Shown one piece after another: positions 2,920 to 23,041 of a DNA stretch of 23,041 nucleotides. Numbering within the stretch: position 1 is the first letter of the stretch; every line of letters begins with the position of its first letter. Origin of the DNA: a virus; IMG/VR virus record IMGVR_UViG_3300025872_003212, positions 1 through 23,041 of that record; one strand, written 5' to 3'. Made by a program: the position numbers and the translations under genes. Below the pieces are notes generated by a model. That model was not told the DNA's origin and searched no databases. It saw nothing but the letters and a program-made list of their open reading frames with translations.

Positions 2920-3570
2920 ATGAAGATCTTTTTAGACACAGCAGATGTTTCACTTATTGGTTCAGCATACGACACAGGATTAATAGATGGAGTCACTACA
3001 AATCCCACTCTAATCCTTAAAAGTGGTAGACAACTTCAAGAAGTTATTACAGAAATCTCAACAGCATTTCCAGAACTAAAAAGCATTTCGGCAGAAGTCG
3101 TTGCAGATACTGCAGAAGAAATGCAATCTCAAGCAAAAAACTATTATACAATTTCACCAGCAGTTACAATTAAGGTTCCTTGTACTGTTGAAGGACTCAA
3201 AGCATGTAAGTTTCTTTCGGATAAAGGAATTCAAACCAATGTAACTTTGGTGTTCTCAGTTGCACAGGCAATTCTAGCATCCAAAGCAGGAGCAACATTC
3301 ATTTCTCCATTCGTAGGTCGTTGGATGGATAATTCTGTGGATGGCATTGAACTTATCAAGAACATTCGTAAGGCATTTGACTATTCTTATATTCCCACAC
3401 AAATTCTTGCAGCATCTCTTCGTGATGTAAGACAGGTAGAACAATCTTTTCTTGTCGGTGCTGATGTGGTTACAATTCCTCCTATTGTATTTTGGTCAAT
3501 GTATAAGAATATTCTCACGGAAAAAGGTATTGAACAGTTCAATAAGGATTGGGCAGAAGTAACTAAATGA
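2920..3570 (+). CDS. talC: Transaldolase (TalC / fructose-6-phosphate aldolase family)
   Basis: Transaldolase moves a three-carbon dihydroxyacetone unit between sugar phosphates in the pentose phosphate pathway; the small TalC form is a hallmark of cyanophages. At 216 aa the length fits the small family. Motifs are MKIFLDTAD (1-9), GVTTNPT (24-30), the Schiff-base lysine K85 in VTIKVPCTVEGLKA, FSVAQA (112-117), SPFVGRW (129-135) and ILAASLR (162-168). The start at 2920 was preferred over ATG 2902 because family members begin MKIFLDTAD. Its TGA overlaps the zwf ATG (ATGA), indicating translational coupling. With zwf and gnd it would steer host carbon toward NADPH and ribose-5-phosphate during infection. 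Confidence 0.95.
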   Translation: MKIFLDTADVSLIGSAYDTGLIDGVTTNPTLILKSGRQLQEVITEISTAFPELKSISAEVVADTAEEMQSQAKNYYTISPAVTIKVPCTVEGLKACKFLSDKGIQTNVTLVFSVAQAILASKAGATFISPFVGRWMDNSVDGIELIKNIRKAFDYSYIPTQILAASLRDVRQVEQSFLVGADVVTIPPIVFWSMYKNILTEKGIEQFNKDWAEVTK

Positions 3571-4895
3571 AAAATATTATAATCTTCGGTGCAACAGGTG
3601 ACCTCTGTCGTAGGAAACTCATCTCTGCACTGTATGAACTTCATAAGAAACAACTACTTCCAGATGATTATGTAATTACTGGAGCATCAAGAACGGCACA
3701 TACAAAAGAGTCTTGGTTACAAACCTTGGGTTCTTATTCAGAAGACTTTATTCGTCGTTTGAATTATGTTCAATGTGACCTCTCGAATGCTGAAAGTTTG
3801 AAGAAACTGAATCCTGGTGAGGATGTAACCTTCTTTCTTTCAGTTCCACCTGAACGATATGGTGATGCGGTATTAAGTCTCAAATCCACTGGATATTTGG
3901 ATGACCCTGAAACAAGTCGGGTGATTATTGAAAAACCTTTTGGATATGATTTGACATCCGCAGAAGAACTACAGCAAATTGTTTCGGATAATCTTCGAGA
4001 GAAACAGGTTTATCGTATTGACCATTATCTAGGAAAGGATACCGTCAATAATATTCTTGCAACTCGATTTAGTAATATTCTTCTTGAACCATTATGGAAT
4101 CGTGATTATGTCGAAGAAGTTCAAATCTTTGCAACCGAAACAATTGGTTGTGAAGGTCGAGCACAGTATTATGAGACTGCTGGTGCTGTTCGTGATATGT
4201 TGCAGAATCATATGTTGCAACTTCTAGCACTGATTGCAATGGAGGCACCTTGTAAGAATAATGCCAAAGAAATCCGCAGAGAAAAGGTTAAGGTTCTTTC
4301 TGCCGCACGACTAGGAACTAAACTGGTCTGTGGACAATATGATGAATATAAGAATGAAAAAGGAGTTGAACTGAATACACAAACTCCAACCTTTGTTGCT
4401 GGAGACATTTACATTGATAACTGGAGATGGCAGGGAGTTCCATTTTACTTTATGACGGGAAAGAAACTTCCTGTGAGTTGTGTTGAGGTTGTCATCAAAC
4501 TCAAATCACCTCCAGTTAGATTATTTGAAGGTCATTCTTATAATGACCGTATTGTAATGAGATTTCAACCTGACCCTCACTTTGATATTCAAATTGATAT
4601 TAAGTCACCTGGTCTTGATGATAAAATTGAAACTGCAATTCTGAAGCACAACTATCCAGAAGGTGCTATTGACGGATACGTGAAATTGTTCTATGATGCC
4701 ATTCACAAAGACCAATCTCACTTTGTTCATTCAGAGGAAGTATTAGAATCTTGGAGAATTGTGAATGACCTTCTTTGTGTGGGTAATTCCTGTCCAGTGA
4801 ATACAAGACCTTATACTTATTATTCTGGTTCTTGGGGTCCGGTGAATGAAGTTCAAAAAATTACTCAATGGGATTATCCCTTAAAACTCGTATAG
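3567..4895 (+). CDS. zwf: Glucose-6-phosphate 1-dehydrogenase
   Basis: This enzyme oxidises glucose-6-phosphate to 6-phosphogluconolactone and makes NADPH, the entry step of the oxidative pentose phosphate pathway. The 442-aa protein has the nucleotide-binding GATGDLCRRKL (8-18), EKPFG (122-126), the substrate-site signature RIDHYLGKD (150-158) and the conserved ETIGCEGRAQYYE with AGAVRDMLQNH. It is about 60 residues shorter than typical bacterial enzymes, as expected for a phage version. It overlaps talC by 4 nt. The gnd ATG follows after 10 nt, preceded by AGGAGAA, a good ribosome binding site. Confidence 0.97.
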   Translation: MKNIIIFGATGDLCRRKLISALYELHKKQLLPDDYVITGASRTAHTKESWLQTLGSYSEDFIRRLNYVQCDLSNAESLKKLNPGEDVTFFLSVPPERYGDAVLSLKSTGYLDDPETSRVIIEKPFGYDLTSAEELQQIVSDNLREKQVYRIDHYLGKDTVNNILATRFSNILLEPLWNRDYVEEVQIFATETIGCEGRAQYYETAGAVRDMLQNHMLQLLALIAMEAPCKNNAKEIRREKVKVLSAARLGTKLVCGQYDEYKNEKGVELNTQTPTFVAGDIYIDNWRWQGVPFYFMTGKKLPVSCVEVVIKLKSPPVRLFEGHSYNDRIVMRFQPDPHFDIQIDIKSPGLDDKIETAILKHNYPEGAIDGYVKLFYDAIHKDQSHFVHSEEVLESWRIVNDLLCVGNSCPVNTRPYTYYSGSWGPVNEVQKITQWDYPLKLV

Positions 4896-4905
4896 GAGAA
4901 AACGT

Positions 4906-5928
4906 ATGAAAGTCGGTCTAATTGGTCTAGGACGAATGGGGGAAGGAATGTCCCGTCGTATGATGAAAGCAGGCATTGAAGTCTGGGGGTATCGTAGGAA
5001 TTATGCAAAGGCAAATGAAGCATTTGAGAATGGTTATGTAAATGGAATTGCGACTACGATTGAAAACCTTGTTAAGATAGTTAAAGGTAACAATCACCCT
5101 GGAATCTTCCAAATGGTGGTTCCAGCAGAAACTGTAGAAGAAACGATTGAAGAACTTCTACTTTACTGTGATGAGGGTGATATTATCATTGACCACGGAA
5201 ACAGTAACTTCAAAGATAGTCGCAAACGAGCAGAACGTCTTGCAAAACTAGGTATTCAATATATTGACTGTGGTACTTCTGGTGGAGTTTATGGTCTTGA
5301 ACGTGGTTATTGTCTTATGGTTGGAGGTGAAACCACTGCGGTTTCAACTTGCTCTAAAATCTTCTCTGCACTTGCTCCAGACATTCATTCTTGCCCACGA
5401 ACCGACCCTGAAGATGGTGTAACATCAGCAGAACACGGTTGGTTGCATTGCGGTGGTCCAGGTGCAGGACACTTTGTCAAGATGGTACATAATGGCATTG
5501 AGTACGGCATGATGCAGGCATATGCAGAAGGATTTAACATTCTTAAGAGTGCTAATGCTGGTGCTCAATATGTCAGAGAAGGTGATGCAGAGGTTGCTCC
5601 AATGTCCGACCCAGAATCTTATTGTTATGATATTGATGTCTCTGAGGTTGCTGAGTTATGGCGCCGTGGAAGCGTTGTTAGCAGTTGGTTGCTGGACCTC
5701 ACTGCTGATGTGCTACGCAACAATGGTGGACTGGAGCAGTTCTCTGGAGGGGTCTCAGACAGCGGTGAGGGTCGATGGACGGTCAATGCCGCAGTGGACC
5801 TGGGAGTACCTGCCCCGGTCATCACCACTGCTCTTTATGAACGATTTAACTCTCGAAATCTTGGAACCTTCGGAGCAAAAATTCTGAATGGTATGAGGTA
5901 CATGTTTGGGGGGCATAGTGTAAGGTGA
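4906..5928 (+). CDS. gnd: 6-phosphogluconate dehydrogenase, short form
   Basis: It oxidatively decarboxylates 6-phosphogluconate to ribulose-5-phosphate. The 340-aa protein starts with a dinucleotide-binding motif, GLIGLGRMG (4-12), followed by DHGNS (96-100), GTSGGVYGLERG (123-134) and the family signature GAGHFVKMVHNGIEYGMMQ (186-204). The length suits the short, dimer-swapping class (about 300-340 aa) rather than the 470-aa cyanobacterial enzyme. The strong site AGGAG precedes the ATG. The 3' part from about 5641 to 5825 is unusually GC-rich (106 of 180 bases at 5641-5820, against about 40% on each side), suggesting recombination with another source. The stop overlaps a possible small gene that begins at GTG 5925. 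Confidence 0.96.
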   Translation: MKVGLIGLGRMGEGMSRRMMKAGIEVWGYRRNYAKANEAFENGYVNGIATTIENLVKIVKGNNHPGIFQMVVPAETVEETIEELLLYCDEGDIIIDHGNSNFKDSRKRAERLAKLGIQYIDCGTSGGVYGLERGYCLMVGGETTAVSTCSKIFSALAPDIHSCPRTDPEDGVTSAEHGWLHCGGPGAGHFVKMVHNGIEYGMMQAYAEGFNILKSANAGAQYVREGDAEVAPMSDPESYCYDIDVSEVAELWRRGSVVSSWLLDLTADVLRNNGGLEQFSGGVSDSGEGRWTVNAAVDLGVPAPVITTALYERFNSRNLGTFGAKILNGMRYMFGGHSVR

Positions 5929-6050
5929 TAAGTTCAGAAACACCTTATAAACTGGCCGAGATTATTCGTGATACTTGGCCAGGTCTTTACAGGAAACCTA
6001 AAGTATCTTATAATAAAGAAAAGGATAAGAAAGATGAAAAAATATCATGA
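5925..6050 (+). CDS. Possible 41-aa protein overlapping gnd and the next gene
   Basis: A GTG-started ORF shares bases with the gnd stop (GTGA) and ends 17 nt inside the following gene. The product, beginning ISSETPYKLAEIIRDTWPG and then LYRKPKVSY, ends in a lysine-rich tail. Composition looks protein-like and the overlap is typical of phage coupling, but a sigma70-type promoter also lies within it. No function can be assigned. It could be a chance ORF covering the intergenic region. Confidence 0.4.
   Translation: MISSETPYKLAEIIRDTWPGLYRKPKVSYNKEKDKKDEKIS
5986..6014 (+). promoter_or_regulatory. Sigma70-like promoter
   Basis: TTTACA (5986-5991) and TATAAT (6009-6014) are separated by exactly 17 nt. 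Expected initiation is near 6021, giving a very short leader containing AAGGA (6021-6025) before the ATG at 6034. It probably drives the small-gene cluster up to the HNH gene. Confidence 0.55.
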
Positions 6051-6354
6051 AGAATATTTTACAGTAAGAGAAAAAAGAACTCATAAAAAAATTTGTGATT
6101 GTGGTAATTTTGAAGATGCAATAATGATGTTGCATCTAGACGTACAAACTCGTGAAATTATAAAAAACAAGATACTGATGGACCAAGTGATTGATGTTGA
6201 AATTCCTAAGGCATTGCCAACTAATGAGATTGTAGTGAATATGGATGATGGTGTTGGTGGTTCTTGGAGAGTAGATGATCCAATTGGTAATGTACCTGGA
6301 CAATTACCACAAATCAAACTTCCTGATAGACAAGCAGAACCTGTGATAGTATGA
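6034..6354 (+). CDS. Conserved-looking phage protein, 106 aa, unrecognised
   Basis: The protein begins MKKYHEEYFTVREKRTHKK, has a CDC motif (residues 21-23), a mixed charged middle, and a proline-rich, acidic C-terminus (VDDPIGNVPGQLPQIKLP). No transmembrane segment or known catalytic motif is seen. The start at 6034 was chosen because AAGGA lies 8 nt upstream and it follows the promoter; a longer in-frame start at 5968 would begin before that promoter. Its stop overlaps the next start (ATGA at 6351-6354), so the two are translationally coupled. Confidence 0.75.
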   Translation: MKKYHEEYFTVREKRTHKKICDCGNFEDAIMMLHLDVQTREIIKNKILMDQVIDVEIPKALPTNEIVVNMDDGVGGSWRVDDPIGNVPGQLPQIKLPDRQAEPVIV

Positions 6355-6473
6355 TAAAGAAAATCATTCATTTTTTTGAAAGAGACAAAGATATTAGTGT
6401 TTATGATGAGTTTGATTATATTTTTATAACTTTAAGAGAATTAATTGAAGTTATAAAAACTGGAAATAAATAA
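6351..6473 (+). CDS. Small protein, 40 aa, unrecognised
   Basis: The ORF starts in the ATGA overlap with the preceding gene and encodes MIKKIIHFFERDKDISVYDE followed by FDYIFITLRELIEVIKTGNK. It looks like a small soluble alpha/beta or helical protein with mixed charge. The coupling overlap supports translation. It ends 18 nt before the HNH endonuclease gene, whose ribosome binding site (AAAAAGGAAG) lies in the gap. No function can be assigned. Confidence 0.55.
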   Translation: MIKKIIHFFERDKDISVYDEFDYIFITLRELIEVIKTGNK

Positions 6474-6491
6474 AAGAAAAAGGAAGTTTTT

Positions 6492-6863
6492 ATGGTTCCT
6501 CTTCATTCACCTTCAGAGTACTTGTTTCATTTACATACAACAAGTTCTGGGGAGGCGAAACGAATGTGGAGACAAAACATAAAAGAAAGTTGGAATCATC
6601 AATGTGCCTATTGTGGTTCAGAAGAAAATCTCACAATTGATCATATTGTTCCACAGTCAAAAGGAGGAATGGACTTTACAAAGAATGTAATCTGTTGCTG
6701 TCATTCTTGTAATCAATCAAAGGGACATGAGTACTGGAAACTGTGGTATGTTCAACAAGATTTTTATAGTGAAGAAAGGGTTGAAAAAATAGAAGAATGG
6801 ATGAAACCAGATCCTCCTGTTAACTTATTCAAATATCGCCCAAGAAGGAATAATCTAACTTGA
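6492..6863 (+). CDS. Free-standing HNH endonuclease
   Basis: This 123-aa protein has a zinc-bound HNH nuclease fold: C38-x2-C41, D50-H51 in TIDHIVPQSKGGMD, N65, and C70-x2-C73 followed by N74. H51 is the likely general base, with the metal bound by H51 and N74. Small stand-alone HNH genes of this type are common between genes in T4-like phages, where they can promote spread of neighbouring sequence, although some take part in DNA packaging or repair. It is not inside a recognisable intron. A good ribosome binding site (AAGGAAG) precedes the ATG. It is the last gene before the fibre cluster. Confidence 0.9.
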   Translation: MVPLHSPSEYLFHLHTTSSGEAKRMWRQNIKESWNHQCAYCGSEENLTIDHIVPQSKGGMDFTKNVICCCHSCNQSKGHEYWKLWYVQQDFYSEERVEKIEEWMKPDPPVNLFKYRPRRNNLT

Positions 6864-6870
6864 ATAAATA
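6863..6870 (+). promoter_or_regulatory. Putative late promoter before the fibre cluster
   Basis: AATAAATA matches the T4 late consensus TATAAATA at seven of eight positions and overlaps the stop codon of the HNH gene. The same ATAAATA core sits at the gene ends at 14169-14175 and 17774-17780. It would begin late transcription of the 6920 gene, with the palindrome at 6874 at the very 5' end of the message. Confidence 0.5.
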
Positions 6871-6873
6871 TAT

Positions 6874-6899
6874 CAAAGACAGTATATACTGTTTCTTTG
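6874..6899 (+). repeat. Inverted repeat / hairpin upstream of the fibre genes
   Basis: A perfect 14-bp palindrome ACAGTATATACTGT (6879-6892) is flanked by CAAAG (6874-6878) and CTTTG (6895-6899), with two unpaired T residues on one side. No poly-T tract follows, so it is not a standard terminator. It may be an operator, an mRNA 5' stabilising hairpin or a processing site. Confidence 0.6.
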
Positions 6900-6919
6900 G
6901 TAAATACCGAATGCGATAA

Positions 6920-8773
6920 ATGTCAACTCCGATCAGGATTAAACGCTCTGCTGTTCCTGGTAAAAGACCTACAGTAGACCAACTCTTAAGTGCTGAATTA
7001 GCCTATAATACTTATGATGGTGAACTCACTGCAAAGAGAGAGCGTCCAGGAATTGGTACAGATATTATTCGTATCGGTGCAGGTGCAACGGTAACTAATG
7101 TAATCTATGTCACAAAAGACGGAAACGACTCCAACACAGGACTCAAACTCGGAGACGCAAAAGCAACCATCGCAGCAGCAGTCGGAATCGCCTCAGCAGG
7201 TTCCGTTATTAGAGTTAGTGCTGGATCTTATGTAGAAAATAATCCTATTCAAATACCAAATCAAGTTAGCATTGTTGGTGATAGTTTAAGAGAAGTCTCT
7301 GTTACTCCACAAAATCAAGGAGACCTCTTTTATGTTGGTGTCGGAAACTACATTGCTGAGATCGCATTCGTAGGATCTGCAAATACAGGTGCCATTTTTG
7401 CTTTCAATCCAAATAAACCAGTTTATAACGACCAATCACCTTATATTCAGAATTGCACTAACTTCATTCCAAATAGCATCGGAATGAAAGTTGATGGTAG
7501 ATATTCTGTTGGACCAACCAAGTCAATGGTTCTTGACTCCTATACACAATACAATCAAGGTGGTATTGGAGTCTCAATTACAAATGAAGGATACGCACAG
7601 TTAGTTTCACTTTTTACAATCTGTCCAGATACTGCGGTCTTCTGTGGATCTGGTGGTGCTTGTGACTTAACAAACTCCAACGCTTCCTTTGGTAATTATG
7701 GTTTAGTTTCTGATGGTATTGGACCAAAAAAGTATACTGGGATTGTAACAACTGCTGCAGAAGCAAATAGTGATACTTTTGTTTTAGATTTGAACGTGTC
7801 AACTTATAATGTATCAAATGCAGTTTATGATAATGTCAGTGGTGTAACAACAATTACGACTTCAGCAAATCATAACTTCAGTGTTGGAATGGGAGTGACG
7901 ATTGCAGGTCTTGGATTTACCTGTCCTTCTGGTCCTGGCATTGTAACATATCCAAGTGGAAATTTTGGTTATGTGTTTGAAGTTCAGTCAGTTCCAGCAG
8001 CAAATCAACTTGTAGTTAATGTTGGTCCATCAACTCTTCCTCATACTTATGTTTCTGGTGGTACTGTTAAAATTAATGTCGTAAGACCTTTTGATGGTCA
8101 GGTTGTTTATTTTGATAATTTATATTACACTGTTAATAAGATTATAGTTGGGTCTGGAGGTACTGGATATACAAATACACCAATTATTACAATTGATTCT
8201 CCATTAACTGATTGGGGAGTTCAGGCAACAGCAGTTGCAGAAGTTGTGAATGGTTCTGTGACTTCTGTTGAAATTGTTTCAAGTGGAAGGGGGTATACAA
8301 CAACACCGAATATTACTATTTCATCACCTGATGTTGGGATAAATACAGCAATAGTTACTTTACAATTACTTCCAACTTATTATTCAATCTTAAGTTCTAC
8401 TCCAATTTCCTCTGGAATTTGTACAATTACTGTGACTGAGAATGTTCCTTATGCTGTTGGTGTTGGATCAACAGTGCCATTCTTTAAACAAAGTAGAGTA
8501 TTGGCATCTGGACATTCTTTTGAATATATTGGTTCTGGTACAAATATTAATGCTGCTCTTCCTGCTCAAGGTGGTGTTCCAATTCAAGATAATGAAGTTG
8601 ATATGAGAAATGGTGGTCTAGTTGTTTATACAAGTACCGATCAATCTGGTAATTTTAGAATTGGTGAAGGTGTGCAAATTGACCAGCAAACTGGGACAAT
8701 TTCGGGTAGATTTTATTCTAAGAGTTTGTTTTCAACAATGACACCATTTATACTCGCATTAGGGGGAGAATAA
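6920..8773 (+). CDS. Virion structural / fibre-like protein with beta-helix domain
   Basis: The 617-aa protein starts with a fibre N-terminal module (IKRSAVPGKRPTVDQL, then ELAYNTYDGEL) like those that attach phage fibres to the virion. Residues about 61-260 (VIYVTKDGNDSNTG, then SAGSYVENNPIQIPNQVSIVGD) resemble a right-handed parallel beta-helix of the pectate-lyase-like or DUF1565 type. Residues about 410-475 hold two GxGYTxTPxITI beta modules. There is no signal peptide or enzyme motif. The ATG lacks a strong ribosome binding site and lies behind the hairpin at 6874. It leads a run of fibre genes, so a tail-fibre or baseplate-attached role is likely; the exact T4 counterpart is not clear. 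Bases 7100-7200 have unusual codon use. Confidence 0.8.
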   Translation: MSTPIRIKRSAVPGKRPTVDQLLSAELAYNTYDGELTAKRERPGIGTDIIRIGAGATVTNVIYVTKDGNDSNTGLKLGDAKATIAAAVGIASAGSVIRVSAGSYVENNPIQIPNQVSIVGDSLREVSVTPQNQGDLFYVGVGNYIAEIAFVGSANTGAIFAFNPNKPVYNDQSPYIQNCTNFIPNSIGMKVDGRYSVGPTKSMVLDSYTQYNQGGIGVSITNEGYAQLVSLFTICPDTAVFCGSGGACDLTNSNASFGNYGLVSDGIGPKKYTGIVTTAAEANSDTFVLDLNVSTYNVSNAVYDNVSGVTTITTSANHNFSVGMGVTIAGLGFTCPSGPGIVTYPSGNFGYVFEVQSVPAANQLVVNVGPSTLPHTYVSGGTVKINVVRPFDGQVVYFDNLYYTVNKIIVGSGGTGYTNTPIITIDSPLTDWGVQATAVAEVVNGSVTSVEIVSSGRGYTTTPNITISSPDVGINTAIVTLQLLPTYYSILSSTPISSGICTITVTENVPYAVGVGSTVPFFKQSRVLASGHSFEYIGSGTNINAALPAQGGVPIQDNEVDMRNGGLVVYTSTDQSGNFRIGEGVQIDQQTGTISGRFYSKSLFSTMTPFILALGGE

Positions 8774-8777
8774 AAAA

Positions 8778-9119
8778 ATGGCATTAGCACTTAACGTATT
8801 TAAAACAGTTACTAAAATTGCTCCAACAAGTCCAGTTGGAATCTACACCGCACCAGTTGGATATACCGGAGTTGTCCTTTTAGCACAGGCAGCAAATATT
8901 GGAAATAATACTCAAACAATTTCTTTTTCTCATAAAAGGTCAGTTGCAGGAATTGCAGTGACTACAGAAATTTTAAAAAATTATCCAATATCGGCAAGTG
9001 ATACTGCAAATCTTCTTGCAGGTAAATTAGTTCTTGAGTCCGGTGATGTTCTTGTATTATCTGCAAGTAGTGAAACTGATATTAAATTTTTAGGAAGCAT
9101 TCTAGAAACACTTAACTAA
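8778..9119 (+). CDS. Small virion structural protein, 113 aa (putative)
   Basis: The product begins MALALNVFKTVTK and contains PVGIYTAPVGYTGVVLLAQ and a C-terminal stretch GDVLVLSASSETDIKFLGSI, a beta-rich pattern without cysteines, signal peptide or membrane span. It resembles short structural proteins encoded beside fibre genes in cyanomyoviruses; a connector or capping role is an inference from position only. The ribosome binding site GGGGGAG lies directly in the end of the preceding gene, 4 nt before this start. The next gene starts one base after its stop, indicating coupled translation. Confidence 0.75.
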   Translation: MALALNVFKTVTKIAPTSPVGIYTAPVGYTGVVLLAQAANIGNNTQTISFSHKRSVAGIAVTTEILKNYPISASDTANLLAGKLVLESGDVLVLSASSETDIKFLGSILETLN

Positions 9120-9120
9120 A

Positions 9121-12100
9121 ATGGCAAAATACGTTAGCGGCAGACAAAAAAATCTTAAAGTTGGTATATCATCTTATAGTGAAAATTTAACTTCTCTAGA
9201 GGTTATTGGATCTGCTGTTTTTAGTGGTGAAAGTTCTGGGGAACTTGTTAGAATTAGTCAAATTGGTACTGGTCCTGCTTTAATTGTAGAAGATAGTGCA
9301 AATCCAGATACCACACCTTTTGCAGTTACGACGGATGGTAGAGTTGCAATTGGTCTTGGTCCATCTGGTATTAGTACATTTTATAAGTTAGAAGTTGATG
9401 GTAATGGTAATGGTGGAGGTGTTCGTTTTGTAAGTGGTGGGCAGGGTGACTTAATCTTTAGTCACTCAAATTTAGTTTCTAATATTCGTGCTGCTGGATC
9501 TGTTCAACTTGGTCTTGGTGCAAATGGTGAAGATGCAATAAGAATTAATTTGAATAATAATGTTGGTATAGGCACAACTGTACCGACATCAAAATTGTAT
9601 GTTGTTGGTGATGGATATTTTACTGGTGTTATTACTGCTTCAAATCTTAATGTAAGTGCAGCATCTTCTTTTGCACAACTTTATGTTTCAGGTATTTCTA
9701 CTCTCGCTGCAAATGGTGGAATTACTACAACTGGTGGAGACTTATATGTTGGTGGAGACTTGTATGTTGCCGATGATTTAAGATTTGATGAGTTCACTGC
9801 AAGAAATATTAACCTCACTGGTATTGGTACTATTGAAACCTTAGATACCACAACTGGTACTATTGACTACTTATCAGGTACTAATATTTCTTATAGTGGT
9901 ATTGGCACAATAACAACATTAGATACCACCACAGGTACTATTGATTACTTAACTAATACCAATCTAAACACTTCTGGTATCGGTACTATCACCACTTTTA
10001 ATAGTACTAATTCATCCATAACGAATATTAATAGTACGGGTATTAGTACTCTTGGGGTTACAAGTACTACAAACTTAACATCTCAACAACTTTATGTTTC
10101 TGGTGTTTCTACTTTTATAAATTCAATCACTGGAACTATTTCAACTGCAACAAAATTAGAAACTGCAAGAACATTTGAAATTACTGGTGATATTGTAGCG
10201 TCTCCCATTAGTTTTAATGGAACTGGAAATGTATCATTAGCAGCAACAATCCAACCAAACTCTGTTGCTCTTGGATCTGATACTACTGGTGATTATGTGC
10301 AGTCGGTTTCTGGGACTGTAGCACAAATTACAGTTACTGGTGGAACAGGAGAGGGATCTACACCTGTTATATCGATTGCTTCAAATCCAACATTACCTGG
10401 AAACGTAACAGTTGGAAATGATTTACAAGTCAATAATAACTTAAATGTCACTGGTAATATTACAGTTGGTGGCACATCAGGTTTTATTCTTGTAGAGAAT
10501 TTTAGCGTCTCTGACGCAGATATTGTTCTCGGTTTTACTACAAATGCTTCAAACCAAGATATTTCTAATGACACTACCGCAAATCATGGTGGTATTGCTG
10601 TTGCATCTACAGAAGGTAATCCTCTTGTAAATCTTAATATTGCTGGTATTGAGACACTACCTGCCACATATAAGAAGTTTATGTGGTTTAAGGCAGGGTC
10701 TTTTGCTGGACTCAATACCGATGCCTGGTTGAGTAATTATGCTATTGGTATTGGTAGTACTCAATTTCCATCAGGTACAAGACTTGCTGCAGGGGCAGTC
10801 CAAATTACTGAGAGAGACTTAGCAGTTGTAAGAAATATCAATGCTTCTGGTATTATAACTGGAACCCTTGCAAATAATCTTACTCTTAATACTTCTGGAA
10901 CTGGTCTTTCTGGAGTTGCGACTTATAATAACTCTGGTGCGACAACTTTCACTGTTACCAGCAATGCGACTAGTAACAACACACCCAGTACAATAGTTGC
11001 TCGTGATGCTTCAGGAAACTTTAGTGCAGGAACAATAACCGCAAACTTAATTGGTACTGCTTCTACAGCATCATTCGCTACGACTGCTTACAACTTAACT
11101 AATGCTGCAAACATCACTACTGGAACTATTAACAGTGCCAGACTATCTGGAACTTATAATATTGATATAATTGGCAATGCAGCAACTTCTGATTATGCTG
11201 ATGCAGCAACATATGCCATCAATGCTGGTATTTCTACAAATGTTATTGGTGGAATAGCATCAGTTACTACATTAAATGTTTCTGGAATTACTACACTTGC
11301 TTCTGCAGGTGGTATTACTACAACTGGTGGAGATTTATATGTTGGTGGAGATTTATATGTTATCGATGATTTAGTATTTGATGAATTTACCGCAAGAAAT
11401 GGAACAATAACTGGAAGTCTAACTTCAAAACAAGTTGCTTCTCAATATTTTGGAGAATTAAACAGAAATACTCATACATCAATTACTGTAACCTCAGAGA
11501 ATAAAACTTCAAATCATAAGTATAGTGGAAGTGGTTCAGCACTTGGGTATTATTTTGATGGAGATGAATCGCCATATCTTCAGTTTATTCCTGGAAAAAC
11601 ATATAGGTTCGATCAGTCTGATGCTTCAAACACAAACCATCGTTTAAGATTTTATCTTGATGCAAATAAGAATCAAGAATATACTGATGGAGTAACATCT
11701 AGTGGAACTCCAGGAAACTCTGGTGCATATACAGAAATTGTAGTTACTAAAACTACACCAATAGTTCTTTATTACCAGTCAGATAATGATGTTCTGATGG
11801 GTAATCAAATACAAACGGTTGGATCGTTTGTATATCTTGCAAATAATGTTGGTGTAGGAACTACAAATCCAGTCCAACAATTCCAAGTTGGGCAGACATT
11901 TGTTGTAACTTCAAATACTAATGTTGGTGTAGGAACTACAAATCCAACCGCTAAATTAGATGTTATTGGGCACACTGAACTTGATACTCTTAATGTTTCT
12001 GTTGCTTCTACTACAGGGAGATTGAATGTTTCTGGTCTTACAACAACTCAAACATTACATGTAAGTTCTGGATCTACATTCAGAGATGATATTACAGTTC

Positions 12101-17802: not shown

Positions 17803-20800
17803 ATGTCTAATAATAGAGAGTTCTCTCAATTAGCATCTAATATACAAGTAAATGAAAATTCCAACTTTATTGGAATTGCTACTGAGGGAAATTACTCTGT
17901 TGGTATTGCAACAAGTTCGTTTAAAGTTAATTCCAGTGGACTTGTTGAAATAAAATCAATACAATGTTCTGATAACATTAGTCTTTCAGTTGGGGGAATA
18001 TCAACTTTAGGAACTGTTAAGATTTCATCAGGTATTGTAACTGCAACTTCTGGAGTTGTAACTTATTATGGTGATGGATCTAAATTATCTAATATTATTT
18101 CAGGCATTGCAGTTCAAGATCAAGGTAGCACAGTAGGAACATCAGTTACTACTCTCAATTTTTCTGGTGCTACGGTATCAGTTTCAAATGCTGTTAATGG
18201 TATTTCGACAATAACAGTTACTGCAAGTGGTATTATAACTTATGTTGATAATGCTGGTATTGCAACTTATGCAACTAATGCTGGACTATCAACCAATCTT
18301 AAAGGTGGTCTTGCTGGTAACATTCCATATCAGTCTGCACCAGATACAACAACATTCCTAGCAAATGGTTCTTCTGGAACTATTCTCCAATCAAATGGTG
18401 TTGGTAACGCACCTTCTTGGGTTACTGCTGCCCCTGCTGGTGCTATTACTGGACTAACTATTAGAGATGAGGGGACTATAGTTGGTGGTGCTAACAGTGT
18501 ATCACAATTAAACTTTGTTGGAAATATCGTTTCTGTTGCTTCGACTGCTGGTATAGCAACTGTTACATTTTTAGATTATGTTGCAAATGCTGGTGTTGCT
18601 ACTTATGCAACTTCTAGTGGTATAGCAACTTATGCATCATCAGCAGGTATATCAACTTATGCAACATCAGCAGGTATATCGACTTATGCTTCAACAGCAG
18701 GAGTAGCAACTGCACTGCAAAACTCTAGAACATTTGAAATTACTGGTGATATTGTAGCGTCTCCTATTAGTTTTGATGGAACTGGAAATGTATCATTAGC
18801 AGCAACAATTCAACCTAATAGTGTTGCTCTTGGTACAGATACGACAGGTGATTATGTTCAGTCAATTACTGGAACTGCAAACCAGATTACGGTTACTGGT
18901 GGAACTGGAGAAAGTTCAACACCAACTCTAAGTGTTCCAAACCAATTTACTGCTCCTCAAGATGTAACAGTTACCAGAGACCTTCAAGTTAATCGTAACT
19001 TAAATGTTAATGGTAATATTACAATTGGTGGCACTTCTGCTACCATTTTCTCACAAACATTAAATATTTACGATCCTGATATTGTTCTTGGTTATAGAAC
19101 TGATGGTAATGGTAATGATATTTCTAATGATACTACTGCAAATCATGGTGGTATTGCCATTGCTTCTACTGAAGGTAATCCATTAGTTCAGTTATTCATT
19201 GCTGGTATTGAGACAAACCCTGCCACATATAAGAAAATTATGTGGTTTAAAGCAGGTGAGTTTGCCGGACTTGGAACTGATGCCTGGTTGAGTAATTATG
19301 CCGTAGGTATTGGTTCAACACAATTCCCAACAGGAACTCGTCTTGCTGCTGGAAATGTTCAATTCACTGAGAATGATCTAGCAGTTGTTAGAAATGTTAA
19401 TGCTTCTGGTGTCATAACAACCAATAACCTGAATGTAACTGGTGTAGGAACCTTCTTATCATCAGGACTCAAGATAAGAAACCCAGCAAATACTTTTGAA
19501 TATTCAATTACTGGTGGTGCAATTACTGCCAATAGAATTCTCAACCTACCTGTAATTACTATAACTGATACAGTAGCAGTTCTTAATTTATCTCAAACAT
19601 TTGGAGCACAACAAAATTTTAACGATACAATATCTGCTATAGGGACACTTTCATTAACTGGTTCATCAACAGGAACTCATGTTTTTGGATCTAACCAAAC
19701 ATCAGGAACGTTAACGTTTGGTGGAACTTCTGGAACTGGTACAATTACATTAGGAAGAGCAACAACATCACAACAAACTGATATTCAAGCAGGTGCTTCT
19801 GGAGTAGGAACAACCAAGACAATTAACTTTGGTACTGGTGGTCTTTCTGGTTCCTTTACTCAAATCAATATTGGTCCAACTGCAGGTATTGGAACGGTTT
19901 CAATTAATACTGGAACTAATCTTGGTATTGGTTCAGCAAGACCAACATCAAAACTTGATGTTGTTGGTGATGCTAAGTTTACTGGTGTTGTTACTGCAAC
20001 AAGTTTTAGTGGTAATGCTTCAAGTGCAACTTATGCTTCTAATGCTGGAGTAGCAACCGCACTACAAAACTCTAGAACTTTTGAAATAACTGGAGACATT
20101 ATAGCATCACCAATTAGTTTTAATGGAACAGGTAACGTATCATTAGCAGCAACCATTCAACCAAACTCTGTTGCTCTTGGATCTGATACTACTGGAAACT
20201 ATGTTGCTTCTGTTACTAATGGTTCTTATATTACTGGTGCTGATGGAGGAAGTGAGGGTGCATCACTTACTATAGGTGTTGCAGCAACATCAGCAAACAC
20301 TGCTAGTCAAGTTGTCGCTAGAGATTCGTCAGGAAACTTTAGTGCTGGTACTATTACAGCATCATTAACTGGTACTGCTACCTCTACAACTAATATACCA
20401 AACCTTACTGGTGATATAACTTCTAATGGAACTGCAACTTCAATTGCTTCTGGTGTAATTGTTAATGATGATATCAATGCGTCTGCTGGTATTGTTGATA
20501 CTAAATTAGCAACCATAAGCACTGCTGGTAAAGTATCTAATAGTGCTACAACTGCAACCAATGCTAATACAGCATCTACAATTGTTGCTCGTGATGCTTC
20601 TGGAAACTTTAGTGCAGGAACAATTACTGCTAACTTAACTGGTACTGCTTCTACAGCATCCTTTGCCACAACTTCTTATAACTTAACCGATGCTGCAAAC
20701 ATTACCACTGGAACTATTAACAGTGCTAGATTAACTGGTACTTATAATATTAGTATCAGTGGTAATGCTTCTAGTGCTACTTATGCAACTACAGCAGGAG

Positions 20801-21414
20801 TATCTACAAGTGTAAGTGGTGGTACTGGATCTCTTACACAACTTAATGTCTCTGGAATTTCAACACTAGGAACTGTAAGAATATCATCGGGTATCGTAAC
20901 AGCAACCTCTGGTGTTGTGACTTATTATGGTGATGGTTCTCAACTATCAGGTATTTCTGCTGGTTTATCAATAACAGATGATACTTCAACAAACGCAACC
21001 AGATATGTTTTATTTGATGATGCAACTTCAGGAACAATCACTGGAGCAAATGTATCATCTACAAAACTCACATTTAATCCATCGACAGGAAACTTAGTTG
21101 CTGGTGGTACGGTCACAGCAAACTCTGACGAAAAACTGAAAACAAATATTAAAACTATAGATAATGCACTGGATAAGGTTTTGTCTTTGAGAGGTGTAGA
21201 GTTTGATCGTATAGATACTGGAGATCATCAAATCGGTGTGATTGCACAAGAAGTTGAAAAGATTATTCCTGATGTTGTTTATCCAAAACAACCAGCACCT
21301 GATTATGAAACTAAGTCAGTTGCTTATGCGAATTTAGTAGGTCTCTTAATTGAAGCAATCAAAGAACAAAATCAAAGAATTGATGAACTGGAAAGAAGAC
21401 TAGGAGAAGGTTGA
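17803..21414 (+). CDS. Tail fibre protein with C-terminal S74 self-cleaving chaperone, 1203 aa
   Basis: The N-terminus MSNNREFSQLAS is typical of cyanophage fibres. The body repeats modules shared with the two preceding fibres, including two internal copies of a FEITGD-to-QPNSVALG segment (around 18727 and 20066) and five 9-residue GIATYATSA-like units. The last 96 residues form a Peptidase_S74 intramolecular chaperone: SDEKLKTNIKTIDNALDKVL, then GVIAQEVEKIIPDVV, VAYANLVGLLIEAIKEQN and a coiled-coil end. S1108 and K1113 have the same spacing as the catalytic Ser-Lys dyad of endosialidase fibres, so cleavage just before S1108 after trimer folding is expected. The fibre probably contacts the host cell. 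Confidence 0.93.
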   Translation: MSNNREFSQLASNIQVNENSNFIGIATEGNYSVGIATSSFKVNSSGLVEIKSIQCSDNISLSVGGISTLGTVKISSGIVTATSGVVTYYGDGSKLSNIISGIAVQDQGSTVGTSVTTLNFSGATVSVSNAVNGISTITVTASGIITYVDNAGIATYATNAGLSTNLKGGLAGNIPYQSAPDTTTFLANGSSGTILQSNGVGNAPSWVTAAPAGAITGLTIRDEGTIVGGANSVSQLNFVGNIVSVASTAGIATVTFLDYVANAGVATYATSSGIATYASSAGISTYATSAGISTYASTAGVATALQNSRTFEITGDIVASPISFDGTGNVSLAATIQPNSVALGTDTTGDYVQSITGTANQITVTGGTGESSTPTLSVPNQFTAPQDVTVTRDLQVNRNLNVNGNITIGGTSATIFSQTLNIYDPDIVLGYRTDGNGNDISNDTTANHGGIAIASTEGNPLVQLFIAGIETNPATYKKIMWFKAGEFAGLGTDAWLSNYAVGIGSTQFPTGTRLAAGNVQFTENDLAVVRNVNASGVITTNNLNVTGVGTFLSSGLKIRNPANTFEYSITGGAITANRILNLPVITITDTVAVLNLSQTFGAQQNFNDTISAIGTLSLTGSSTGTHVFGSNQTSGTLTFGGTSGTGTITLGRATTSQQTDIQAGASGVGTTKTINFGTGGLSGSFTQINIGPTAGIGTVSINTGTNLGIGSARPTSKLDVVGDAKFTGVVTATSFSGNASSATYASNAGVATALQNSRTFEITGDIIASPISFNGTGNVSLAATIQPNSVALGSDTTGNYVASVTNGSYITGADGGSEGASLTIGVAATSANTASQVVARDSSGNFSAGTITASLTGTATSTTNIPNLTGDITSNGTATSIASGVIVNDDINASAGIVDTKLATISTAGKVSNSATTATNANTASTIVARDASGNFSAGTITANLTGTASTASFATTSYNLTDAANITTGTINSARLTGTYNISISGNASSATYATTAGVSTSVSGGTGSLTQLNVSGISTLGTVRISSGIVTATSGVVTYYGDGSQLSGISAGLSITDDTSTNATRYVLFDDATSGTITGANVSSTKLTFNPSTGNLVAGGTVTANSDEKLKTNIKTIDNALDKVLSLRGVEFDRIDTGDHQIGVIAQEVEKIIPDVVYPKQPAPDYETKSVAYANLVGLLIEAIKEQNQRIDELERRLGEG
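18589..18723 (+). repeat. Five 27-bp tandem repeats
   Basis: Units start at 18589, 18616, 18643, 18670 and 18697. They encode AGVATYATS, SGIATYASS, AGISTYATS, AGISTYAST and AGVATALQN. Copies differ at several bases, so the array is older than the 63-bp duplication. Confidence 0.85.
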
Positions 21415-21415
21415 T

Positions 21416-23041
21416 ATGCCAGTTGTTGTAGGTCTAAGTTCAATCACTGGAGTTTCCACGGCAACAAGTGGCACTGATGCTGCTTACAAAGAGTATGTTG
21501 ATAATAAACTAGGTGGATCAGTTCCAAGCATTTATGGAAATGAGAATGAGTTTCTCTTTACGGATGGAAGTACAATATCGTGGGAACCAATACAGGCAAG
21601 TCAAGAATATGCTATGGCAGGGTCTTATACTTTTAATTTACCGTCACAAGCAAAAGAGTTACTGATAGAAGCAACAGGTGCAGGTGGTGGAGGAGCAAGT
21701 GGAAATACTGATGGAAGTTCTTATGTATCAGCAAGCATTTGGGCATTAAGAACTTCTGGTTTTGCTACTAATGCTATTAATGCTCTTACTTTTGGAAATA
21801 ATACTTATGTTGCTGGTGGTGCTAGTGGAGTTTTGAATACCTCAACAGATGCGATTCAGTGGACTTTAAGAACTGCTAGTTTTGGTGGAAGTAGTGTTAT
21901 TGGTCTCACCTTTGGAAACAATATTTATGTTTTTTGTGATAATAGTAGCAGATTAAATACCTCAACAGATGCAATCACTTGGACTTTAAGAACCATTGGA
22001 TTTTCTAATCCTGCTTTTGATGTTACTTATGTAAATGATATATTTATTGCTAGTGTGTCTAATGGACCTTTGATTGTTTCGACCGATGCAATTCAATGGA
22101 ACGCAAGAACTTCACCATTTTCTTCTATTCTTGCTCTAAGTTTTGCTTATGTAGATTCTAATTATTATGTAGCAGGACAGTCTGGAATTTTTGCATCATC
22201 CACAGACACGATCACCTGGACTTTAAGAACTTCTGGTACTGGTAGTTCACTTAATGCTCTTACTTACGCAAACAATACTTATGTTGCGGGAGGAACATCA
22301 GGAACTCTCACAGTATCACCAAACACCACAACAGGATTCTCAGGTGGTGGAGGTGGTGGAGGTGCATTAGCATCATGGATAATTTCTAAGGACCAAATCA
22401 CAGGTTCTTCATTAACCGTAGATGTTGGTGCTGGTGGAACTGCTGGAACTGCTGGTGCTGGAACCACAGTATCTTGGACTGGACCTGGAGGAACTTATAG
22501 TATAACTGCGAATGGTGGAAGTCCTGGAACCAATACTGGACTTGCATTAGGTGGATCTGGAGGAACAGTACCAGCAACAACCACAAATTATCTTCAAGCA
22601 TCTGCTGGTGCTGCTGGTGTTGCTGGAAGAGTATCATCAGTTTTTGGATTTTCAGCACCAACCACAACTGCTTCTTTCCAAACTTCTGGTGGTGGAGGAG
22701 GTGCTTATAGTTCTTCTGGTGGTGTGAGTATTGGTGGTGCTGGAGGAACGATTAATTATTATGCAAACACTAACGCAAACTCTAGTATTGATATTACTGG
22801 AAGAATTGCTCCTAATATTTCTGGATTATCTTATGGTAATGGTGGAGGAGGTGGAGGAGGTTCAAGTGAGAATGCTCTTTATTGGACTTTAAGAACTTCT
22901 GGGTTTTCAAATATAGTTAGAACTTTTCTTTTTCAAGATAATACTTATGTTGCTGCTGGTGATAGTGGAAGATTAAATACTTCAACAGATGCAATCACTT
23001 GGACTTTAAGAACTTCCGGTTTTGCTACGCAAACAATTACT
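21416..23041 (+). CDS. Glycine-rich adhesin-like virion protein with WTLRT repeats (3' end outside window)
   Basis: The ATG follows the S74 fibre stop by one base; AGGAG (21402-21406) is the ribosome binding site. The frame stays open for 542 codons to the edge. Residues about 66-93 (GSYTFNLPSQAKELLIEATG, then AGGGG) look like the start of a glycine-rich domain, which resumes at residues 310-316 (seven glycines) and continues VDVGAGGTAGTAGAG to ITANGGSPG, with further Gly runs at 425-429 and 476-482. Between them lie about five blades of a 40-50-residue repeat (NTSTDAITWTLRTSGF, NNTYVAGGASG), and the repeat restarts after residue 486. This resembles BNR/sialidase-like propeller blades. Position after the fibre and glycine runs suggest a receptor-binding tip protein (inference). 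Confidence 0.8.
   Translation, partial: MPVVVGLSSITGVSTATSGTDAAYKEYVDNKLGGSVPSIYGNENEFLFTDGSTISWEPIQASQEYAMAGSYTFNLPSQAKELLIEATGAGGGGASGNTDGSSYVSASIWALRTSGFATNAINALTFGNNTYVAGGASGVLNTSTDAIQWTLRTASFGGSSVIGLTFGNNIYVFCDNSSRLNTSTDAITWTLRTIGFSNPAFDVTYVNDIFIASVSNGPLIVSTDAIQWNARTSPFSSILALSFAYVDSNYYVAGQSGIFASSTDTITWTLRTSGTGSSLNALTYANNTYVAGGTSGTLTVSPNTTTGFSGGGGGGGALASWIISKDQITGSSLTVDVGAGGTAGTAGAGTTVSWTGPGGTYSITANGGSPGTNTGLALGGSGGTVPATTTNYLQASAGAAGVAGRVSSVFGFSAPTTTASFQTSGGGGGAYSSSGGVSIGGAGGTINYYANTNANSSIDITGRIAPNISGLSYGNGGGGGGGSSENALYWTLRTSGFSNIVRTFLFQDNTYVAAGDSGRLNTSTDAITWTLRTSGFATQTIT

Follow-up and report, generated by a model that had tools for sequence, protein, structure and literature searches.

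A 77-nt identity between neighbouring tail fibre genes of an uncultured cyanophage: a probable trace of recombination among shared modules

Introduction

A phage's tail fibres determine the hosts that it can enter. In a 23-kb virus record from an uncultured cyanophage, two neighbouring fibre genes share 77 nt without a difference, wobble positions included, inside a module whose copies are otherwise diverged. Was this tract copied within one genome, or did it pass between phages? A module present in many copies allows the exchange of fibre parts to be measured, within a genome as against between phages; rates of fibre exchange are usually argued from single anecdotes. In what follows, the window is the full 23,041-nt stretch that was analysed.

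The window carries a cyanophage gene set, with a split psbA, a transaldolase and a 6-phosphogluconate dehydrogenase, and a structural cluster downstream; an ORF at 3567–4895 was read by eye as glucose-6-phosphate dehydrogenase. In the window psbA (344–2596) contains three group I introns (1450–1659, 1980–2231 and 2278–2505), and in a longer contig identical to the window (L190, psbA at 5739–9893) it has five group I introns and six exons, one of them about 20 nt. Several psbA introns hold ORFs, one of which is an HNH endonuclease (819–1508). In each of the two sister contigs checked, a single group I intron is recognisable in psbA, and psbA of contig L008 has an additional gap at a different site. 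Intron-containing psbA is known from S-PM2 (PMC6083498). In Synechococcus phage S-SKS1, SWZG_00024 (L083 2062–3117), annotated as photosystem II D1, is by eye a D2-like protein.

The fibre genes and their shared module

Three large fibre genes follow one another in the structural cluster:

Fibre 1 (F1), 9121–14169, plus strand: 1682 residues; ORF call, phrog_1469 and phrog_30742, synteny
Fibre 2 (F2), 14211–17774, plus strand: 1187 residues; ORF call, phrog_1469
Fibre 3 (F3), 17803–21414, plus strand: 1203 residues; ORF call, phrog_11011 (long tail fibre distal subunit)

F1 is the first large fibre gene downstream of structural ORFs of 617 and 113 residues, and by synteny its position is orthologous to that of S-SKS1 SWZG_00010, annotated as 'baseplate wedge subunit'. 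All three genes match PHROG tail or baseplate families, and the cluster is syntenic with a named cyanophage fibre cluster (that of S-SKS1, plus phrog_1469). F3 alone among the three ends in a Peptidase_S74 intramolecular chaperone domain (residues 1108–1160; Pfam PF13884, E 4e-16); F1 and F2 have no Pfam match at E ≤ 0.01. From their sequences, the products would be trimeric tail fibres, in which the module probably forms a conserved interior part rather than the tip that binds the receptor. The gene 3' of F3 (21416–23041), which extends beyond the window end, contains degenerate repeats of the type STDAITWTLRTSGF and a 32-nt exact repeat (21962/22982).

Self-comparison of 9121–21414, suggested in a preliminary description of this DNA, recovers the module in all three fibres, and self-repeats make up 47% of the interval. 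The copies, together with the neighbouring repeats, are as follows:

Module copy in F1, 10123–10857, plus strand: 245 residues
Module copy in F2, 14751–15485, plus strand: 245 residues
Module copy in F3, 18682–19416, plus strand: 245 residues
Fourth, partial module copy, inside F3, 20029–20490, plus strand: clear similarity in the first part, 20029–20217
Following shared unit (repeat family D4), plus strand: F1 10934–11183, F2 15562–15811, F3 20522–20771, displaced in the last
Perfect tandem duplication of 63 nt in F2 (repeat family D12), 14597–14722, plus strand: two units, 72-nt exact match 14597/14660

The three 735-nt copies align gap-free, 4628 and 3931 nt apart, and their nucleotide identity is 82% for F2–F3, 75% for F1–F2 and 73% for F1–F3. 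The preliminary description had put the module at about 340 residues in all three fibres. Its presence in all three stands, but its length depends on the pair: F1 and F2 have 1157 nt in common (10039–11186 / 14667–15814; 79% identity), or about 385 residues, while F3 shares contiguously only 702 nt (18719–19418), or about 235–245 residues. In F3 the 290 nt that continue the shared unit are displaced and lie 1.1 kb downstream (20577–20867).

Among the viral contigs, L004 and L009 both cease to match the window inside the 63-nt tandem duplication of F2, at 14677 and 14715. In L053 (7112–13615) two full module copies lie within one 2168-residue fibre ORF, an arrangement that fusion or duplication of fibre genes through the module would be expected to give.

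The 77-nt tract

The identical tract lies towards the end of the module in two of the genes:

77-nt tract in F2, 15345–15421, plus strand: identical to 19276–19352
77-nt tract in F3, 19276–19352, plus strand: identical to 15345–15421

The identity is exact, wobble positions included, as had been described, and cannot be extended by one base on either side. No exact repeat in the window is longer; the next two measure 72 nt (the F2 tandem duplication) and 53 nt (inside F2). Same-residue codons differ between F2 and F3 at 0 of 25 positions inside the tract as against 62 of 186 (33%) outside, a contrast with P of about 4e-5. A run of at least 77 nt has p = 1.5e-4 when the codon order of F2–F3 is shuffled, and a polymorphic-site permutation over a wider set of module copies, introduced below, reaches the lowest p that 2000 permutations allow. 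These values make a chance match unlikely. The tract is identical while its flanks are diverged. Outside the tract, the closest of the other copies resemble F2 and F3 to about the same degree, which gives the copying no polarity.

Comparison across the module family

Scans of viral contigs gave a comparison set of 77 distinct full-length module copies. One contig, L004, is the same phage, identical to the window over 14677 nt, and so adds no allele. The start of the module falls 49 to 1884 residues into the gene, depending on the phage, and its place in the cluster also varies.

Could codon-level or overlapping constraint have preserved the identity? The protein segment is conserved, with a residue diversity of 0.14 in the tract, where sliding windows over the module range roughly from 0.12 to 0.44. 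Synonymous diversity over the 77 copies is nevertheless ordinary (0.41 in the tract, 0.38 elsewhere), 96% of the tract's third positions are polymorphic, and in F1 9 of the 23 same-residue codons in the tract depart from those of F2 and F3. Constraint of this kind, which the preliminary description had named as a possible refutation, is therefore rejected as the cause, with next to no probability left to it. The other pattern named there, each copy evolving separately, fails as well: on the module tree gene position needs 20 changes against a shuffled mean of 22.1, and since clades ignore position, independent evolution of the copies by gene position was rejected. Strict concerted evolution is also unsupported, as the nearest neighbours of most copies sit in other phages.

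Identity over the tract is rare at this level of divergence. Only five of 1889 pairs with 72–88% overall identity show no difference over the tract, the F2–F3 pairs of this phage and of its sister being two of the five. F2 and F3 are each other's best matches over the tract among the 77 copies, with the next copies at 5 or more mismatches; just upstream of it, F2 falls to about 35th place among the matches to F3 (75-nt windows, 77 copies). Besides the 77-nt tract, F3 has two further tracts of this kind, one with F1 and one with F2:

F1–F3 mutual-best tract, 10166–10240 (F3 18725–18799), plus strand: 3 mismatches in 75 nt, exact runs of 38 and 34 nt
Second F2–F3 tract, 14942–15053 (F3 18873–18984), plus strand: best or near-best matches, 50-nt exact run at 14961/18892

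Within the F1–F3 tract, the F2–F3 match ranks 50th. A PHI-type test detects recombination in the module, with 0 of 1000 permutations as low. Recombination is pervasive in the module family.

Exchange between phages and possible exchange within a genome

Exchange of this kind also occurs between different phages and is widespread in the module family. Exact runs of 188, 101, 98, 92, 89 and 82 nt join comparably diverged copies of different phages, so phage-to-phage exchange is at least as visible as exchange within a genome, and the 77-nt tract could have come from a donor phage outside the sample. Of 12 same-genome pairs, three have p ≤ 0.0005, compared with 3.6% of 1877 other pairs, and all three belong to this phage and its sister.

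The preliminary description had read the identity as suggesting recent gene conversion and proposed a test with paralogues from related phages. When run, the test gave this genome a same-genome excess with p of about 0.03, a value that is biased because the genome was picked for that identity. In the eight other multi-copy genomes, identity-matched comparison found no same-genome excess of best-match windows (8 against 8.2 expected, p 0.58), and an unmatched rank test found a weak one (p = 0.04). The exchange of tracts, as opposed to slow divergence, is upheld; the matched test, being without a same-genome excess, does not single out a donor in the same genome over one in another phage.

Sister phages

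In contig L008, which carries the same fibre cluster, the 77 nt are likewise present in F2 as well as in F3; the event is therefore older than the split of the two phages. The sister yields no finer date, because the tract-bearing blocks of the two phages hardly differ; "recent" can accordingly be kept in a relative sense alone. Near-identical blocks run from about 13600 to 15700 and from 17750 to 19100. The F2 module of L008 equals that of the window over 735 nt, and the F3 modules differ mainly in one concentrated patch. The F1 module of L008, the allele of which is also found in contig L009, is only 79% identical to the window's. The remaining blocks alternate, being either 10–20% different or replaced by longer segments, two of which are:

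Replaced F1 segment, 9836–11270, plus strand: about 79% identical, longer allele in L008/L009
F2 segment not colinear with L008, 15867–17021, plus strand: 2202 nt in L008, right end at repeat unit 16425/17022

The first of these is bounded by 125-nt direct repeats (9683–9807 and 11276–11400). Such coincidences between the ends of replaced segments and repeats are suggestive only, because 47% of the fibre DNA lies in self-repeats and they would often be expected.

Structure and possible function of the module

The tract sits in an internal domain rich in invariant residues, probably away from the fibre tip. It had been proposed that the exchange can shuffle host-contact parts among fibres; for the tract this finds no support, its domain being conserved and the parts with the greatest differences between the sisters lying elsewhere. 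Shuffling of host-contact parts fits the segments replaced between the sister phages better than the tract itself.

Monomer models of fibre parts were of poor to moderate quality. A 260-residue model was discarded (mean pLDDT 57); a 145-residue domain model reached a mean pLDDT of 77.6. Against the PDB the latter gave no significant fold match, and in a viral library it matched only homologous cyanophage fibres, those of S-SKS1 and S-SRM01. The module may act as a shaft or connector.

A further role is conceivable, though doubtful: repeated conversion of the shared internal domain might keep neighbouring fibre genes partly alike and so preserve a recombination anchor. If true, the anchor would let whole neighbouring fibre parts be exchanged within and between phages.

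Discussion

The three fibres are probably mosaics that draw on a shared pool of related modules, and homologous recombination between copies of the module would have left the 77-nt identity behind. The most likely event is the copying of a short piece of one fibre gene onto another, either within a single phage genome or between sister genomes replicating in one cell. The mechanism would be recombination of the T4 type, in which, during replication driven by recombination, strands invade at shared modules and short patches are copied. The repeated modules would then act as homology anchors that allow adjoining fibre segments to be gained, lost or swapped. Because F2 and F3 match each other best in this tract, and F3 and F1 in another, within-genome copying is the best single reading of the tract, though not a proven one.

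Copying inside one genome would not be needed if, during co-infection, one fibre had received the segment from a relative and the other already had the allele or received it too. This is a possible course of events but a less likely one. Exchange of 82–188-nt tracts between phages is common, the sister phages, near-identical otherwise, differ by a wholesale replacement of the F1 module, and the matched tests lack a general same-genome excess, all of which is consistent with import. Against it, beyond this phage and its sister none of the 77 copies carries the tract with fewer than 5 mismatches, and the three separate mutual-best tracts inside this genome mean that import needs several coincidences. 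The loose grouping of F2 and F3 on the module tree would be compatible with a module that was duplicated recently and then diverged, leaving the tract as a remnant that changes slowly. Such a history is very improbable: the same-residue codons that differ at a third of positions in the flanks do not differ at all in the tract, the tract edges are sharp, and the left part of F3 is closer to F1 than to F2. Even less credit is due to an assembly artefact, by which two fibre copies were collapsed or chimaerically joined. The window is a metagenomic contig, and the 63-nt tandem repeat is a point at which other contigs end; nevertheless L008, a separate contig, has the 77 nt in F2 and F3 with differing flanks, and L004 matches the window base for base up to that repeat.

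Comparison with known systems

The nearest named phage with a full module is S-SKS1 (Llyrvirus), whose module has 75% protein identity. Its fibre region (SWZG_00010–00012) keeps the same gene order (HNH endonuclease, tail fibre ORF, ORF of the 113-residue type, giant fibre). It differs in having one full and one partial module in a single giant gene, and in the genes that follow.

A parallel to copying within a genome comes from experimental evolution of a single phage, cyanophage S-TIM4, in which 15 synonymous changes arose within 120 bp of ORF108, a YadA-domain fibre-type protein of 2235 residues (PMC6224464). The changed stretch matched other stretches of the same genome, which the authors read as recombination (PMC6224464). 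Both cases show clustered synonymous differences and a giant-fibre patch of about 100 nt that recurs identically elsewhere in its genome; the S-TIM4 change arose in the laboratory in one population, whereas the present pattern is fixed between neighbouring genes. The S-TIM4 case is close to what is proposed here, and it lowers the novelty of the proposal.

Tail-fibre mosaicism has long been known in T4-related phages (PMC2993671), and the fibres of cyano- and pelagimyophages form variable host-recognition clusters (PMC7029224). As in those phages, the fibre genes described here lie in a variable island and are mosaic within genes; what sets them apart is that the mosaic unit is one defined module of 245 residues, traced through 77 distinct copies. 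Mosaic fibres produced by recombination are established and ordinary for phage fibres, and the present module offers unusually many relatives for comparison.
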